Positions 5,676 through 59,990 of a stretch of DNA of 64,000 nucleotides are shown in pieces; positions within the stretch are counted from its first letter, which is position 1, and each line of letters opens with the position of its first letter. The stretch spans positions 9,669,968 through 9,733,967 of the forward strand of contig CP141141.1 of the NCBI GenBank assembly GCA_035235625.1, read 5' to 3'. A program made the position numbers and the translations under genes. The stretch comes from Saururus chinensis. Lineage: Eukaryota; Streptophyta; Magnoliopsida; Piperales; Saururaceae. Under the pieces are notes generated by a model that did no database searches, was not told where the DNA came from, and saw only the letters and a list, made by a program, of their open reading frames with translations.

Positions 5676-5889
5676 CAAAATAATTTTTTTTAAAATTACT
5701 ATTTAAAACTAATTTTATCACATGTCCCTGTTCATTCATTCAAAACATACGCAATACATGCACGACTTCATTCATTCCACCCATAACAAATATCACCAAA
5801 ACAAATATCACCATCACGAATATCACCATAACAAATATCAATAAGGTTCATCATAGACGAGTAACAAATATAGTGCATCACAAGTAATG

Positions 5890-10545: not shown

Positions 10546-10720
10546 TAAAAAATAAAAAAAAATCACACTAACAGCAACTACTTGGCTGGCACTATAGCAA
10601 AAAAAATACTATTTTATAAAATATTTCTTAAAATAATATATTTTAATAATTTTTAATAATTATTATTTTAATAATTATTTTTAAATAAAAATTTAAAAAA
10701 TAATTATAATAATAAAATAG

Positions 10721-26446: not shown

Positions 26447-26619
26447 GGGATATTTAAACAATAATTTTTAAAAAATAATTACTAAATTAATCTGGTTTGG
26501 AAAGTGTTTTTAACTGATTTCGTCTGTTGGGAGGATGAAATCAAGTTTTAGTTCATTTCGTCTTTTCCAAAAAGACAAAATTGTATAAAAAAATTAAAAT
26601 AATTTCATCATGGGCAAAA

Positions 26620-33428: not shown

Positions 33429-33591
33429 GCTTGGCAGGCGCCTACGTGGCCAAAAGTAATACTATTTTGAAAAATATTTCTCAAAGTGCGCAATTTTGAT
33501 AAATATTTTTTTAAAATATTATTTAAATAATTTTTTCTTATTGAAATAATGAAAATTTGGTTGGTTTTTATGGCTGCCATTTAATCAAATA

Positions 33592-43005: not shown

Positions 43006-44235
43006 TTGATTTTCTAATGCATGATGTTTATTTTGATGATTCCATTTTAGCGTGCCAATTTCATATGAATGTGGTGTGTTTTAAGCTATGTCATGTTACT
43101 AGAAAGGCATGCTATTGAGGGTATGGAATTAAGACATATGCTTAAAAATTTGTGGAATGACTTATGTTTTGTGGCATGATGTTGGAATTGTTATCTTGAG
43201 ATTATGAATGGTTGATTCCCTTTGGTTAAGCATATTTTCAGTAGGACTACAACCTATTATTGGACTGATTTGTAATGATAGATTGTGGTTAGTTGTGTGT
43301 GGATGTTGGTGAATGCCATGACTCAATGATGAAATGAGTGATGTTATACGTGTTTAGCCTTTGTGGTTGAGTTTTGAATTGGGATACGATTTTAACGATG
43401 CTTCTTCTATTATTTCCGTTGGAATTCATGTTTAGATGGAAATTCAAATGTGTAGTGTAGTAGTAAGTTAATTTCAAGCATGTTGAAATGCATTGAGTGA
43501 AGTACTTCTACTAGTTACACACACACATGTGGGGGTTAAATGATGATGTTGAAGCTTAATATTGTGATTATGAATGATACATTAGGGGCTGATGAAAGCA
43601 CTTATCATGGATTAGGATTCATGTATGCCTTGCCCACGTATGTACCATGCTGCATACATCATAAAAATGGATTTCCAATTGAGGCTTCATCGAGGTTAAT
43701 CGAATTTGACCGATTGGATGCAATGTGGTGAAATTGTGTGCCGGATTGATCGATTGTGGATTAATCGAAAGTTGATTGGTCCAAAAGGACATGTTTTGAT
43801 TTGAAGTTCCTGTGTGGAACGAGTGCACTCCCCGGGTTGAGTCTAATTAAATGGAATGATGTGGGGACGAGTTGTGTACTTGTCTTGCGGATTGTGAGAA
43901 TGTTATTATGAGTGTCATCTGGACCCTGAGAATCCAGTGTGGTATGCCGTGTGCACCCCGCTACCACATGTTCTAGGGTTCTCTGTGTGAGAACTCGGGC
44001 TCTTCCCTCCGCAGGAGATGTCCCTGGGCGAACAGCCCTGCTCTAGATTCTCTGTGTGAGAATGGGACATCCTTGGCCAGGATCGTCCAGGGCGAGCAGC
44101 ATTAGGGATTGACAACCCCGATCTTTCTATAATTCTTGTGTAGAATTTTGGATCGTGATACGCCTTCGTGGCCTTGTCTATGCTGCCATTTGTGTGACAT
44201 TAATGTGTGAATTACTCCTTGATGGAGGTTGTGAT

Positions 44236-44640
44236 GATATAATGCATGATGGAATATGTATGTTAGAGATACATCCATGCAAGTTTATTTGATGAAATAC
44301 ATGTGGGAATATGTATGTTAGAGATACATCAATGCAGGTTGATTTTGATATAATGTATGTGGGAATATGTATGTTAGAGATACATCCATGCAGGTTTATT
44401 TGATGGAATGCATGTGGGAATATGGGAATATGTATGTTAGAGATACATCCATGCAGGCTTATTTGATGGAATGCATGTGGGAATATGTATGTTATAGATA
44501 CATCAATGCAGGTTGATTATGATATAATGCATGTGAGAATATGTATGTTAGAGATACATCCATGCAGGTTGATTTTGATATAATGCATGTGGGAATATGT
44601 ATGTTAGAGATACATCCATGCAGGTTGAATTATGCACTAT
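44236..44640 (+). repeat. Seven ~54-bp tandem units in LTR B
   Basis: Each unit carries 'ggaatatgtatgttagag', 'atacatccatgcaggtt' and 'tgatataatgcatg'. Units differ at few positions, and one has an extra 'gggaatat'. Confidence 0.85.
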
Positions 44641-45838
44641 GATGCTGTGTTAGGTGATATGTATATGTGATCAGAAAATGATGCACCATGTAAATCTTTG
44701 ATCTGAATGATCTTATTACTATGTTATCGTGCTTTCGATGTTGATAGTGATGTTAAAACTATTGCTGAGTTTGTTAAACTCACCCCTCTTTTTGTGTTTT
44801 GATTTGGGACTGCGTGGTGCGACACGCAGTCGGACAGGATCTCCTCTTTGAGGAAAGGTCGGAGGTGGCTTGGATGTGATCATGGAGATCGTTGTGTGAC
44901 TAATCTTCTTTGGATTTATGTTTTATGTTAGAACCTTTGTGTAGGGTTCTTTGCTTTGGATTTATGTCATACTTTACAGTTGTGATGCTTATGTTTTATT
45001 TTGAGCCGGTGTGGGCTTTACTTAAACTAAGCTTGTGGGTTTGAGATTGTTGCTTACTTTGTGATAAACAACTCCTTTTCTTCCCTTTTATTTACTCTTG
45101 CTCAAAGTGGAATGTGCGTACTCCATATGTCTGTTAATCGCCCGTGGTTAGGGTTAAGTCTTCCGCTAGATCGTTTCTCAATCTTCACTTTGTCGCCCCC
45201 GCGCACTTGACCGGCCCTTGGACCGGGTTCGGCTCGGGTCGGGCATCGCCGGGGCATGACATCCCCTCCCCCCTATATAGTGTTAGAGTGTCCTTGGGAG
45301 TGATTTTGGGACGTTTGGCAAAGTTTGGTCTGACCATGCTCGTACAGCCACTTTCGTCGCCACTCCAGCATAATGGAGAAAATCTCTTATGCTATATAGT
45401 GGGGGACATGGTGAGCTAAAATGACAAAGTTGTTGGTATGATGCCTAACCATTCAACTGGTTGTCTCAGATGGCAACGAAGGCTTGTTGCCTTGCTAGCT
45501 ATCATGCCAAGAGCCCTGTCTACTGGGGGATGGGGTTGTTTGACCCCTCGAGTGGCCGTTCGGCTTTATGGCCTTCTTAGATACAAAGACCTTGCATGCA
45601 CTTGCCTAAGTTGGATCCGTATATTGCAAGGAGGTGTCCCCTTCCAGCCAGCTCGCTTGGGAAATGTCCTGGCACGTTCGCACGTCCGCCTTGGTACGGG
45701 TTCATTGCTTGGCTTCGCGGGCTGGATGCTTGGACGAATGGCACGAGGTCATGACATTGATGAAGAATGGCTTACTCGCTTAGTTGTTTGGCCTTCCGAG
45801 TCCCGCACGGGTGGCATTCCCCGGGTGCCCCCGTGATA

Positions 45839-46531
45839 GGAGGCAGAGGGAGGCGGGGTGGACGGGCGGCAGAGGTGGGGTGGAGGCGCAGCCGCAGACG
45901 ACGGCTATGGGAACTGGAGAAGAAGAGGAGGGGGAGAGACGGGGGGAGAATAAATATTGCATGATCAAAATTTTGCCCGCACGGTATTTTAATTCACCCA
46001 CGCAGGTGAATGAATATTTCCCATGAGCGCTTTAGCGATGCTTCAATTGAAGTGTCGCTAAAATCTTACATATTGCAACATTTATTTATAAGCATCGCAA
46101 ATGTATAGCTTATTTGCGACGCTTACTACTAAGCATCGCCAATAGTATTTTTTAAAATTAAAATATTCTCATCACCCCTCTCTTCTCTCTCTCCTCTCTC
46201 CTCCTTCCACCTCTCTCCTCACCCTCTCTCTTCTCTCTCTCCTCTCTCTAGATATCTCTCCTCTCCTCTCTCTCCCTCTCCTCTCCTTCTCTCTCCTCTC
46301 ACTCTCTCTCTCTCTCTCTTCACCCTCTCTCCTCCCCCTCCCTCCCTCTCTCTACACACTATCTCTCCTCTAATTTTAATTTTTTATGATTTGATTATTT
46401 TTTAAAAATAATTTTAATTTTTTTTAAAAATAAAATAAAAATTATTATCAATGCATTGGAATATGCATCGCTAATAATATTTATTTTATTTCATTTTTAT
46501 AATTTTAAAATTAATTTAATTTATAAAAAAA
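45839..46531. repeat. CACTA remnant with GCGACG repeats and CT tract
   Basis: 45839-45950 is a G-rich minisatellite remnant. 46020-46145 has subterminal repeats (ttagcgatgcttc, gaagtgtcgctaaa). 46165-46365 is a (CTCTCTCCTCT)n tract followed by 'tacacactatctctcctct'. 46440-46480 has tgcatcgctaata. The tract and its tail are duplicated at 48115-48490. Confidence 0.7.
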
Positions 46532-46677
46532 GGAAAATTATTTAAATAATAATTAAAAAATATAATTACTAAATCAAACCACTTTGGGAAATATTTCCCA
46601 AAAGTAGTATTGCTTTTTTCCACATAGGCGCCTGCATGGTTTTTTTAAAAAAACTTATGTGATTTCGTCTTTCTACT

Positions 46678-46985
46678 ATGCATGGAGCTGTCGTTGCTCT
46701 GGGGGATAGACATCTGCATGATCTCACTGGCGTTGTCGAGCCGACAAGAGCGAGGATGCTGCAAGAGCATCTTAACGACATCGATGCCCCCTCCGGGGGC
46801 ACCAGAGCTGTGGTTGAAATCCCAACGGAAGATCTCGTGGAAGGGGTCGCAGTTGTAGATGCGGAAGCCGCAGTCAGTGCCGGCGGCAAAGTAGTCATGG
46901 TCCTGGTTGAAGGAGAGGTGGAGGGTGGGGAGGGAAGAGGAGTCAGACTCGGAATTGGGGGTAAAATTTTCAGAAAAATCCTAAT
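46678..46985 (-). pseudogene. Captured ATG18 fragment, left arm
   Basis: The minus strand reads [20 protein letters not shown], then [10 protein letters not shown] and [11 protein letters not shown]. This matches the first WD repeat of plant ATG18 (…NQD…[16 protein letters not shown]…), a PI3P-binding PROPPIN needed for autophagosome growth. Only the N-terminal repeat is present and it is disrupted; relative to the right arm it lacks about two bases after MLL. It cannot make a functional protein. The piece past 'ctcttgtcggc' does not match ATG18 as I know it and may be a second capture. Confidence 0.75.
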
Positions 46986-47403
46986 AGTGAAAAGGGGGGG
47001 TGCAAATGGGACAAATTATCTACCACCTCTTAGGGACAAATAAGGTGACTCGGTTGTTTAAGGTGATTTCATCATTGTTGAAAGATGAAATCACCACACT
47101 TAAACAGCCTGCATACTGCAGGCAACAGTGCAGCTTGGTGAAATAGGAAATAAAGGTAAACAAAACAGCATACCGCAGGCAGCAATGCAGCTTGACGAAA
47201 CAAGAAATAAAGGTCAACACGCAAATGATTATGACAAAAAAACACATACAACATGTGCAGCTTGATGTAATTGAAAACATTGACGATTTCATAATTGGCA
47301 CAAAACTCTTAGAGCATTTACTATCCCAAATTTACGGATAGAAAAAGAGTAAAACAAGAGTAGAATAATGAAATGGGAAATAAAACAAAAAATTTTGAAG
47401 TCA

Positions 47404-47803
47404 TCAAGAATTTTGAGAAAGATGGGGCTTGTCGTGGGTTGTTTCTCCGTCCCCCCTCCTTACCCCCTCCAGGATTCCCCCAAAAATTCTACCCGCGACT
47501 TCGAGTCCGACTCCTCTTCCCTCCCCACCCTCCTCCACCTCTCCTTCAACAAAGACCATGGCTGCTTCACCACCGGCACTGACTATCGCTTCCGTATCTA
47601 CAACTGCGACCCCTTCCGTGAGATCTTCTGCCGAGATTTCGACCACAGCTCTAGTGCCCCCGGAGGGGGCCATTAGCGTAATTGAGATGCTCTTTCGCTA
47701 CAACATCCTTGCTCTTGTCAGCCTGACGACACTAACGAGATCATGCAGACGTCTATCCCCTAGAGCAACGACAGCTCCATGCATAACTTCATGTACTTTT
47801 TAA
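47404..47803 (+). pseudogene. Captured ATG18 fragment, right arm
   Basis: The plus strand reads [20 protein letters not shown], then [20 protein letters not shown] and, in another frame, [16 protein letters not shown]. The last block is the ATG18 VEMLFRxNILALVGGG motif. It includes more 5' sequence than the left arm as seen here (from about 47429). The frame change after the Gly-rich block shows it is not functional. It is opposite in orientation to 46678-46985 and similar at roughly 85% by eye. Confidence 0.8.
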
Positions 47804-48097
47804 AAAAAAAATCATGTGATTTAGTCCTTTAGAAGGACGAAATCAACTTAACATGATTTCATCCTTTTAAAGGACGAAATCACTTAATTTTGTTTAAACT
47901 GAAATGACGAAATCAACTTAATCATGATTTCATTTTTTCATAGGATGAAATCATATAAAATTTTTAAAAAACCATGCAGGCGCCAGTGGCTTGGCTAGGG
48001 CCTGCTTAGTAAAAAGTAACATCACTTTGGAAAATGTTTCTCAAAGTGATTCGATTTAGTAATTATTTTTTAAAAATTATTATTTAAATAATTTTCC

Positions 48098-48499
48098 TAA
48101 AAAGATAAATTAATTAATCTCCCTCTCCTCTCTCTCCTCCCTCTCTCTCCCTCTCCTCTCTCTCCCTCTCCTCTCTCTCCCTCTCCTCTCTCACTATCTC
48201 TTCTCTATCCTCACCCTCTCTCTTCTCTCTCCTCTCTCCTCTCTCCTCTCTCCTCTCTCTACCCTCTCTTTCTCTCCTCTCTCCCTCTCTTTACACACTA
48301 TCTCTCCTCTAATTTAAATTTTTTATGATTTTTTATTTTTTAAAAATAAATAAAATAAATATTATTAGCGATGCATAGGAATATGCATCGCTAATACCTA
48401 CCCTATTAGCGACGTATATTTCTATGCATCGCTAATAATATTTATTTTAATTTTAATTTTTAAAATATAATAATTTATAAAAAAATCTTAAAAAATTAG
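48098..48499. repeat. Duplicate CT tract and GCGACG repeats
   Basis: 48119-48300 repeats the (CT)n-rich tract of 46165-46365. 48300-48330 repeats 'tacacactatctctcctct', and 48360-48440 has tgcatcgctaata and ttagcgacgtat. It is a direct duplicate on the far side of the fold-back MULE and presumably belongs to the CACTA element. Confidence 0.7.
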
Positions 48500-48801
48500 G
48501 TATGATGCTGATTATAAATAGGTATGATGTCAATTATATGCGATAAACAATATGTGATTTACCTGTGATGTCGTTTGGATTTACTTTTCGTTATTTAAAA
48601 ACCCTTGTTGAGCTTGTAACTCACCCCTCTTTCTCATGTTTTATTTTGGGGTTGCATGACGTGTCGTTAGGTGGTTAGGATGGACTCTATGAGGAGCATA
48701 TGGGGGTTGTCTCCCACATCGAACGCTACTTAATTGTATTGCGTGCCATCCTCCCCTTAGACTAGGTTCGGCACTAGGTTGGCGGGTGTTGAGGTGTGAC
48801 A
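48500..48801 (+). mobile_element. 3' fragment of a family-B-like LTR
   Basis: The segment 'gagcttgtaactcacccctc' and the following 'ggggttgcatgacgtgtcgt' resemble 44765-44830 of the family-B LTR. It ends GTTGAGGTGTGACA. Its 5' part is missing. It may have replaced the right end of the CACTA element. Relic. Confidence 0.55.
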
Positions 48802-50309
48802 CAAGTTGTGTGTCCCCTTGCGCCTTCAGATCTCAATTCGACGGCTCTCAAAGCTCGGGCTCACACAAATGAGATTTAAGAAATTAATTTAAATTTTTAA
48901 CAAATAATGAATTATGTATTTATATAATGAATAATATATTTATAATTTAAATAATATTAAATATAATATATTAAATTAATAATATATTAGTATTTTTACT
49001 AACAAATGTTGCAAATAATAATATATTAAATTTGAAATATTATAATTAATATATCTTTTAGATTATATAATATATTATTTAATATAAAAATATATAATAT
49101 ATAATTACGTAAAAAAATAAATTAATTTCTTCTATCCTATTTGTGTAAGATTGCGTTGTGCAAAATTGAACCCCGGCTCTTTGGACTCTTTTGGATTCAA
49201 TTGCTAATTAATAATTGACAATACAATAGATAAATAAAGCATACATAAAAAAATTTAACAAAGAAAACCACATAACACTTTGTTCAACCGGAAGATATGC
49301 AATAAGTTAATAAGTTACAAAGTTATAGACTACAAACAATGACTCAACTCAGCCTTATCAATTCCGTTGGTGTCACACCACTTGGACTCCATAGAGTTTT
49401 GAACACCTTGTATGAAAATTCACTCGTTCACATGAATTTTCTCTTGAGTGTCTCTTAATCCTCTGTGCATGCTTCACCCTCTTCAATCTTTGAGTTGTTT
49501 TTGGACCACCACCTTTCCATACTCACATTTCCACGAAGTGTGTGATATGTGATTGATATGTGTCTGGTCATTTAATTCGTGTACTCAATGATGCTAGAAT
49601 CATCCAATTGATTTTTGAATTGAATTCTCTGATCCTATGGCTTGAAACAAATAAATATTCAAAGAAAATAAGCCATGGATGCAAAATAAAGCTTTCATGT
49701 TTGACCAATAACTCTAAGAAAAACTATAGAAAGTTCTAAGAGAGATTACCTATCCCACATTTATAATGCCTTTATGTAGGTTCTTAGGTCGGTGGAAGCA
49801 TATTGTCCTAGTTTGGAAAGGAATTCAAATTGTATTGGGCTCATCTAAGTAAGTTCTCATGCCGTTGGAAGAACCTGATCAATGTTAAATGAAGTCATTC
49901 AATTACATATGATAAAACCATGACCTCAAAAACTCTATGATTATCCTTAGACGAAACCGTATGCATGCAAAGGATAAACCTGAGAGTTTGATTTTCAGAT
50001 TGAACATCCTTTGAACGATTGTGATGAATTGCACAACAATCAATCTCATCCTACATGCTTTTCCTCAATCTTGTCAATTTGTTTTCACACCCAAACATTG
50101 TAATAGATCTTCTAACTCTTAAGTGTGTGATGTATGCTCTTTACCTCTTCTCTTATATGAATTCTTCCTATGATTCACTAAATCTTCATTTGTCTTTTAA
50201 CTTCACTCTGGAATATCCGTCAAGCAAAGACTTCAACTAGTGACTTTCAATGAAAACACAAGGCATTGACTCAATGAATCCAAACTCACACATCTAGATT
50301 GGCATAGTT
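48802..50309. other. AT-rich spacer without recognised genes
   Basis: 48880-49130 is almost pure A/T (ataatatatta type). 49150-50300 may belong to the neighbouring Copia-type relic, but I see no domain. Confidence 0.45.
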
Positions 50310-59529: not shown

Positions 59530-59990
59530 TTTCACTCGATTGTCCTAAATTTTTCCCCGATCCAGCAATCCCATTCGGCTATCCCATTTCACTTTAGAGT
59601 CGACCAGTTCGCCACCTTGCCGAACTGTTTTCCCCAATCCGGTGATCCCATTCGGCTATTCCCGTTTTACTTTATAGTCGACCAGTCTGCCATCGTGCCC
59701 TAATTTTTTCCCCAATCCAGCTATCCCATTCGGCCACCGTTTCACTTCACAATCGACCAGCCCACCGCCGTGCCCTCATTTTTCCCCAATCTAATGGTCT
59801 CATTCGGTCATTCCCTTTTCACTTCATAGTCGACCAATCCGCCACCGTGCCCTAATTTTTTCCCCAATTCAGCGATCTCATTTGGCCATTCCCATTGCAC
59901 TTCATAGTCGACCAATCTGGCATCGTGCCCTAATATTTTCCCTGATCCCATTCCCATTTCACGTCACAGTCAATGAATCGACCAGTCCGC
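59530..59990 (+). repeat. Tandem ~80-bp units
   Basis: Five to six units each contain 'ttttccccaatccagc', 'atcccattcggc', 'tttcacttcatagtcgacc' and 'ccgccaccgtgccctaa'. Unit starts are near 59548, 59625, 59705, 59780, 59855 and 59935. No coding frame is conserved across units. Confidence 0.8.

Follow-up and report, generated by a model that had tools for sequence, protein, structure and literature searches.

Two mirrored pieces of a host gene lie close together in the genome of Saururus chinensis, and they raise the question of whether a single transposable element carries both, how captured DNA could become part of the element's own inverted repeat, and whether such a structure might act on the gene from which it came. 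The window, the whole stretch of DNA that was analyzed, is 64,000 nucleotides long (C2:9669968-9733967), and the genome searched comprises 516,460,831 bases in 11 contigs. An earlier note on this DNA had described a fold-back Mutator-like element (MULE) at 46532-48097 with ATG18 fragments in both arms. With the family ends GGG...CCC as a guide, we place the boundaries at 46531-48098 (1568 bp), which agrees with the noted span to within a base; the first and the last base of the element both differ from the family ends. Its parts are as follows.

46531..48098, no strand: whole fold-back Pack-MULE, non-autonomous (family ends, inverted arms)
46531..46618, plus strand: left terminal inverted repeat (TIR), from the TIR match, 84% to the right TIR
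46619..46676, no strand: left spacer from TIR to captured block, far shorter than the right spacer
46677..46739, minus strand: outer flank block U60, left copy, adjoining the 1078 end of the ATG18 piece
46740..47011, minus strand: ATG18 exon-1 piece, left copy, 76% to L048 bases 808-1078
47012..47452, no strand: loop between the gene-matching stretches, 441 bp
47453..47722, plus strand: ATG18 exon-1 piece, right copy, 79% to L048 bases 822-1078
47723..47785, plus strand: outer flank block U60, right copy, 86% to the left copy
47786..48010, no strand: right spacer, containing imperfect hairpin repeats of the form GATTTCGTC... (arrays at 47817-47968)
48011..48098, minus strand: right TIR, from the TIR match

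The inverted arms were recovered by repeat search as pairs at 46786-46942/47514-47670 (157 nt, 83%), 46677-46761/47701-47785 (85 nt, 86%) and 46917-47000/47453-47536 (76%), together with terminal pieces at 46534-46602/48026-48094 and 46516-46554/48075-48113. End-to-end alignment of the left arm with the reverse complement of the right showed matching from the terminus through the ATG18 piece, confirming that the captured DNA is part of the inverted repeat. Extra blocks of about 170 bp in total, present in the right arm only, interrupt this alignment; within the family, the right-spacer sequence belongs to a TIR that can reach about 300 bp. Self-BLAST of the element chained a 461 bp arm at 79%, with the inner block containing the ATG18 piece at 82%, and in their ATG18 part the two arms are 84% identical to each other. 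The fold-back thus consists of 481 bp to the left and 646 bp to the right of the 441-bp loop, in line with the loop of about 0.5 kb that had been described. A transcript of 46640-47985 has a predicted folding energy of -684.6 kcal/mol, compared to an average of -354.8 (SD 10.1) in 20 dinucleotide shuffles (z -32.6), so that the long hairpin anticipated for any transcript is upheld as a predicted fold. This folding energy, 32.6 SD below the shuffles, and the recurrence of the same build in the genome argue that the fold-back did not arise by chance. The longest listed open frames in the element (121 and 124 aa) overlap the ATG18 pieces, and the element carries no transposase, as is the case for Pack-MULEs.

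The element is flanked at 46175-46530 and 48120-48490 by two similar stretches in direct orientation, 78-83% alike where matched, in which a CT-rich tract and an AT-rich tract are followed by a GCGATGCAT...ATGCATCGC palindrome; given this arrangement, the element's insertion site was probably a repeated stretch within another element. Elsewhere in the window, 33429-33534, 26451-26487, 10613-10706 and 5685-5716 resemble the element's TIR and represent other relatives or fragments of the MULE group. Long tandem arrays occupy 1518-1856, 44235-44628 and 59544-59942 (units of 25/100, 56/111/174 and 78/152 bp), and no tRNA was found in the window.

Both arms match exon 1 of an ATG18-type gene in the same genome, C2:56693165 (C2:56.69 Mb), as expected of a Pack-MULE and its parent gene. 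The left arm (46740-47011, minus) is 76% identical to this exon (E 2e-53) and the right arm (47453-47722, plus) 79% (E 6e-63), so the same N-terminal ATG18 piece does occur in both arms in opposite directions. The captured piece spans about 270 bp in each arm, faces outward around the loop and stops in both cases at gene base 1078. A PDB search with the right-arm peptide returned WIPI3 (8.9e-8) and Atg18 (7.8e-6). Exon 1 of the parent gene is open over 897 bp, with its donor site placed by reading, contains a Pfam PROPPIN domain (E 2e-25) and has PDB matches to WIPI3, WIPI4 and Atg18. ATG18-like exon matches that reach the end of the query were found at C2:56693165, C3:44786642, C10:25835885, C6:21572568 and C6:21936705. 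When both sequences were compared, C2:56693165 matched the transposon pieces far better than the paralogue C3:44786642, which was rejected as donor: the window arms match it over only 35 bp and other elements over 32-71 bp. The U60 block had no match in the 7.4-kb ATG18 gene stretch beyond 8-9-bp chance matches, and an origin from the gene stretch compared was rejected. One frame of U60 reads ...EIMQ(T/M)SIP(Q)SNDSSMH and may be a second captured gene piece.

To place the element in its family, we searched the genome with DNA and with protein. The DNA search with the element, in which the best 40 of 2079 first-look candidates were scored (the window and 39 others examined), found fold-backs at five of these 40 loci. 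A protein search with ATG18 exon 1 as query, scoring the best 150 of 343 candidates, left 145 rows in 128 clusters after five rows had been set aside as genes because their matches run to the end of the query. Two ATG18 matches were present in 17 of the 128 transposon clusters among these best candidates, and in all 17 they are ordered minus then plus. These 17 comprise 14 that were fetched, the window, L037, and one at C3:12.75 Mb (matches 3.3 kb apart) that was left out of the examination. Altogether 19 fold-back elements were examined, spread over 10 of the 11 contigs; because scoring was confined to the best candidates, the family will contain at least this many. The earlier note had presented a single unusual element; its description of captured DNA inside the inverted repeat stands, but the element belongs to a large family in which fold-back lineages recur.

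Single-arm members of the family have the order TIR, hairpin-rich spacer, inner sequence, ATG18 piece, U60, spacer and TIR. In 40 of 44 elements the end of the captured piece lies at gene base 1069-1079, and the remaining four (L055, L060-L062) have it at 1044-1050. On its other side the piece extends in many single-arm elements to gene base 692, and in a few it reaches 596-613, a short way upstream of the start codon (632). U60 is present on both sides in 14 of the 19 fold-backs, on one side in L009 and on neither in L055 and L060-L062. Chained arms measure 461-940 bp in 15 of the 17 fold-backs for which both ends were found, compared to 57-315 bp of chained inverted arms in 27 single-arm elements; in L050 and L057 the chain stopped at about 170 bp despite the presence of both ATG18 copies. 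A second type of ATG18 fold-back was observed in L055, L060, L061 and L062, in which each arm carries two gene pieces, 643-708 and about 862-1050; they have no U60 match, and their arms are 86-94% alike. This type goes back either to another capture of ATG18 or to a branch that was rearranged, and six short loci (L087, L095, L100, L101, L102 and L104) look related to it. In addition, two like-oriented single-arm ATG18 elements at locus L021 are separated by 26 bp, and a further TIR comes after them.

The assignment to MULEs was assessed from element ends and target-site duplications. Typical ends read GGGAAAATTATT...AATAATTTTCCC, changed in several copies, and combine long TIRs with outer G residues as MULEs do. 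Both ends were located for 44 elements, with a choice of ends that favoured 9-bp matches and supplied the start points for the later length test. When every length was given equal freedom of end choice, perfect duplications were found in 30/44 elements at 7 bp, 26/44 at 8 bp and 22/44 at 9 bp, dropping to 5/44 at 10 bp and 1/44 at 11 bp, while pairing the flanks of different elements gave 6.5%, 3.1%, 1.3%, 0.6% and 0.2% at 7-11 bp. Among 13 elements with GGG and CCC ends, seven were perfect at 9 bp and all reached 7 of 9. This 9-bp pattern in the relatives is a MULE signature, which together with the long TIRs sustains the class originally proposed. The window copy itself has no clean target-site duplication (7 of 9 at best, in A-rich flanks). 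PF10551 MULE-transposase matches are numerous in the genome (best 150 of 2831 candidates scored). No transposase-bearing element with the same TIR was found among the 41 TIR places and 150 transposase places of these best-listed samples, in which the nearest pair lay 35 kb apart. Four PF10551 matches with long open frames were noted within about 110 kb at C9:33218118-33325853. The window element is a non-autonomous Mutator-like element, a Pack-MULE, carrying an ATG18 piece in both arms.

How the second arm arose can be approached from the breakpoints. Both arms share breakpoint 1078 and U60, and 40 of 44 elements end at 1069-1079, which indicates that one arm was copied from the other; the second arm is probably such a copy and not a second capture. 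We consider it likely that a Pack-MULE captured the ATG18 piece, became a fold-back by end copying and afterwards moved as one unit, with the window copy as an old, inert relic of this process. In such a history, an internal piece of exon 1 of ATG18 (PROPPIN) would have been captured long ago by a non-autonomous MULE, which then spread. In some descendants one end would have been copied onto the other, probably during repair of a break or excision gap for which the opposite terminal repeat served as template, the likeliest route in our judgment. Copying that ran inward through the captured piece would have joined it to the inverted repeat, and of the resulting fold-backs at least one lineage would have kept transposing as a unit. 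For one lineage this movement is directly evident. In six elements (L050-L053, L056 and L063) one arm of each falls in a clade with support 100/100 and the other arm in a clade with 92.3/92, and because the arms occupy two separate clades, the fold-back formed once and was later transposed as a unit. Support along the backbone of the arm tree is poor, and the tree fits one fold-back origin with later arm loss as well as several origins.

An alternative to the copying of an end is that two different single-arm elements fused or recombined head to head, which we regard as somewhat unlikely. The halves of the window element do resemble different single-arm elements: the left arm and loop positions 1-138 match L013, L022, L023, L039 and L045, the left part of the loop being common to such elements as L013, L022 and L023, while the right part of the loop and the right arm match L014 (91% in the loop) and part of L011, and neither tree joins the two window arms as sisters. 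Branch support is, however, low at the relevant nodes, and in L009 the two arms occur together with the entire loop (matching at 74% in one half and 83% in the other). Given this complete plan in L009, single-arm types may just as well descend from a fold-back ancestor by loss of an arm. It is extremely improbable that two separate single-arm insertions or an assembly artefact mimic a fold-back here. Neighbouring separate elements do exist in this family, as in L021 with its 26-bp gap and L019 with two in one locus, but the window element contains no TIR match besides its two ends, and two nested or adjacent elements were rejected at this place. The fold-back build also recurs at 19 loci on 10 of 11 contigs, and a perfect 9-bp match surrounds the whole unit in 11 of the 17 fold-backs with both ends (ends chosen favourably). 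End copying followed by transposition as a unit remains our preferred account.

The earlier note had also suggested that such a hairpin could supply small RNAs against ATG18. A working natural hairpin would be transcribed, fold, be cleaved by a Dicer-like enzyme and yield small RNAs that lower ATG18 expression, and from the sequence evidence we judge this very unlikely for the window copy. Speaking for it are the very stable predicted fold (-684.6 kcal/mol, z -32.6), a total of 13 exact 21-mers shared with ATG18 exon 1 (4 + 9, longest match 29 nt), and the precedents of small RNAs from inverted pseudogenes in rice (PMC2708354, in the part available) and of Mu killer in maize (PMC3440606, likewise in part). 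Fold stability per base is also higher in all 17 fold-backs than in any of the 27 single-arm elements with both ends found. Against it, exact 21-mers to exon 1 are absent from 11 of the 17 fold-backs with both ends, whereas single-arm elements hold 0 to 33 of them (none in 7 of 27) and match ATG18 at least as well as fold-backs do, which indicates that targeting was not kept with the fold-back form. Furthermore, the window arms are only 84% alike in their ATG18 part, and their CHH change (9.6%) lies below the mean of the single-arm units (11.3%). No Rfam match was obtained at the gathering threshold in 45500-49200, and an Rfam-type small-RNA precursor was rejected at that threshold. A role in silencing ATG18 is possible but unproven, and for the window copy a maintained role of this kind is not favoured.

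The state of the copies suggests long decay. Identity to the gene has a median of 79.7% over 75 copies, 48 of which contain in-frame stops, and nearest transposon copies differ at 0.141, 0.102 and 0.147 of first, second and third codon positions. With these stops and with first-position differences close to those at third positions there is no sign of constraint, and a coding role for the copies is not supported. C-to-T changes affect 850/3171 cytosines in CG, 518/2272 in CHG and 469/4958 in CHH context, and these higher rates at CG and CHG than at CHH are consistent with methylation in the past. The window copy looks old, decayed and apparently non-coding, and today it is most likely inert, methylated repeat DNA, where we infer both silence and methylation.

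CHH is the context of small-RNA-directed methylation. Comparison of fold-backs with single copies in this context, in its main form, used copies from the protein search; earlier forms had mixed copies from different searches. CHH C-to-T changes numbered 280/1585 in 28 fold-back arms vs 153/1320 in 20 single-match copies (permutation p 0.0004), compared to 359/1165 vs 277/935 for CG and 145/634 vs 114/504 for CHG; by lineage (6 vs 42 units), p was 0.016 for CHH, 0.35 for CG and 0.27 for CHG. The first 20 controls came from upper ranks, and with 20 lower-rank controls added the contrast was 280/1585 vs 323/2512, with p 0.002 in the raw test and 0.019 relative to CG+CHG. Once the L055/L060-L062 type was left out, the raw CHH test gave p 0.027 and the relative test 0.13. 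The five fold-backs of the DNA search, including the window, had no CHH excess (66/593 vs 306/2483), and the window arms, taken by themselves against single-arm units, had none either.

Controls were taken as single because the protein search lists one match at those places, and L019 (5163), a copy of the L055/L060-L062 type at a truncated locus, counted as single in the tests that preceded the lower-rank controls. Six unpaired copies among the added controls (L087, L095, L100, L101, L102 and L104) have a CHH change of 20-27%, as high as in the fold-backs of the L055/L060-L062 type, and gene ends at 1050-1059. Their resemblance to the L055/L060-L062 type means that part of the excess may reflect lineage and not fold-back shape; an alternative possibility is that these six are fold-backs with an undetected arm. 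Splitting the controls at base 1055 put five of the six with the other type, which makes a separate test of the L055/L060-L062 type unreliable. The CHH excess in fold-backs may thus be a lineage effect. That fold-backs were a source of hairpin small RNAs, with decay faster than in single-arm copies, mainly at CHH, as a readable fossil, we consider improbable; the wider control weakened the contrast and halved an estimate that was already low.

Pack-MULEs were reportedly the subject of a study by Jiang in 2004. The present family shares with the Pack-MULEs described in the accessible part of PMC3310237 its long TIRs, 9-bp duplications, GC-rich first-exon piece, lack of transposase and many copies, but there the captured piece sits once between the TIRs, whereas here it is inverted in both arms. 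Captured DNA inside extended MULE terminal repeats has already been noted in print (PMC3310237, section 4.2, which cites Hanada 2009 and Lisch 2002 for captured sequence in MULE TIRs). The literature searched yielded neither a capture of ATG18 nor a fold-back Pack-MULE whose two arms both hold a gene piece. Plant fold-back MULEs (MuTAnT in Medicago, and FARE in Arabidopsis as cited within PMC4486113) have the same fold-back TIRs, G-run ends and 9-bp duplications, but 90% of MuTAnT elements are 200-300 bp long, and the available text of that paper mentions no captured gene. In Galileo of Drosophila, TIR1 and its inner flank were copied onto TIR2 (TIR1-F1-F1-TIR2), a TIR extension like the outcome that we infer for the window family; Galileo differs as an animal element of the P superfamily, with no captured host gene mentioned in the accessible portion of its description (PMC3573991). 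Mu killer of maize is likewise an inverted duplication of MULE DNA, proposed to yield hairpin RNA, but according to the available text it duplicates a transposase gene and silences a transposon (PMC3440606), where a hairpin of the present family would carry a host-gene piece. Inverted pseudogenes in rice with an 83%, 185-nt stem yield small RNAs, and none were detected from the parent gene in the part of that study at hand (PMC2708354). Where plant MIR genes arise by inverted duplication (Model 1, in the section available of PMC10004981), inverted copies of a host-gene piece could similarly yield small RNAs against that gene; here no Rfam match was obtained at the gathering threshold. The window element is a Pack-MULE fold-back of a known general kind, here documented in many copies and several lineages.

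The message of the window copy itself is modest: it is an old relic and not evidence of ATG18 regulation. The weak CHH lead, if borne out, would link element shape to small-RNA-directed decay; past small-RNA attack could then be readable from the genome sequence alone, and fold-backs could be birthplaces of small-RNA loci against host genes, ATG18 among them. Because this genome also contains the single-arm forms and the parent gene, comparison can test how fold-back Pack-MULEs originate, and the family provides a clear, countable case of MULE TIRs growing inward over a captured host-gene piece, with onward transposition.
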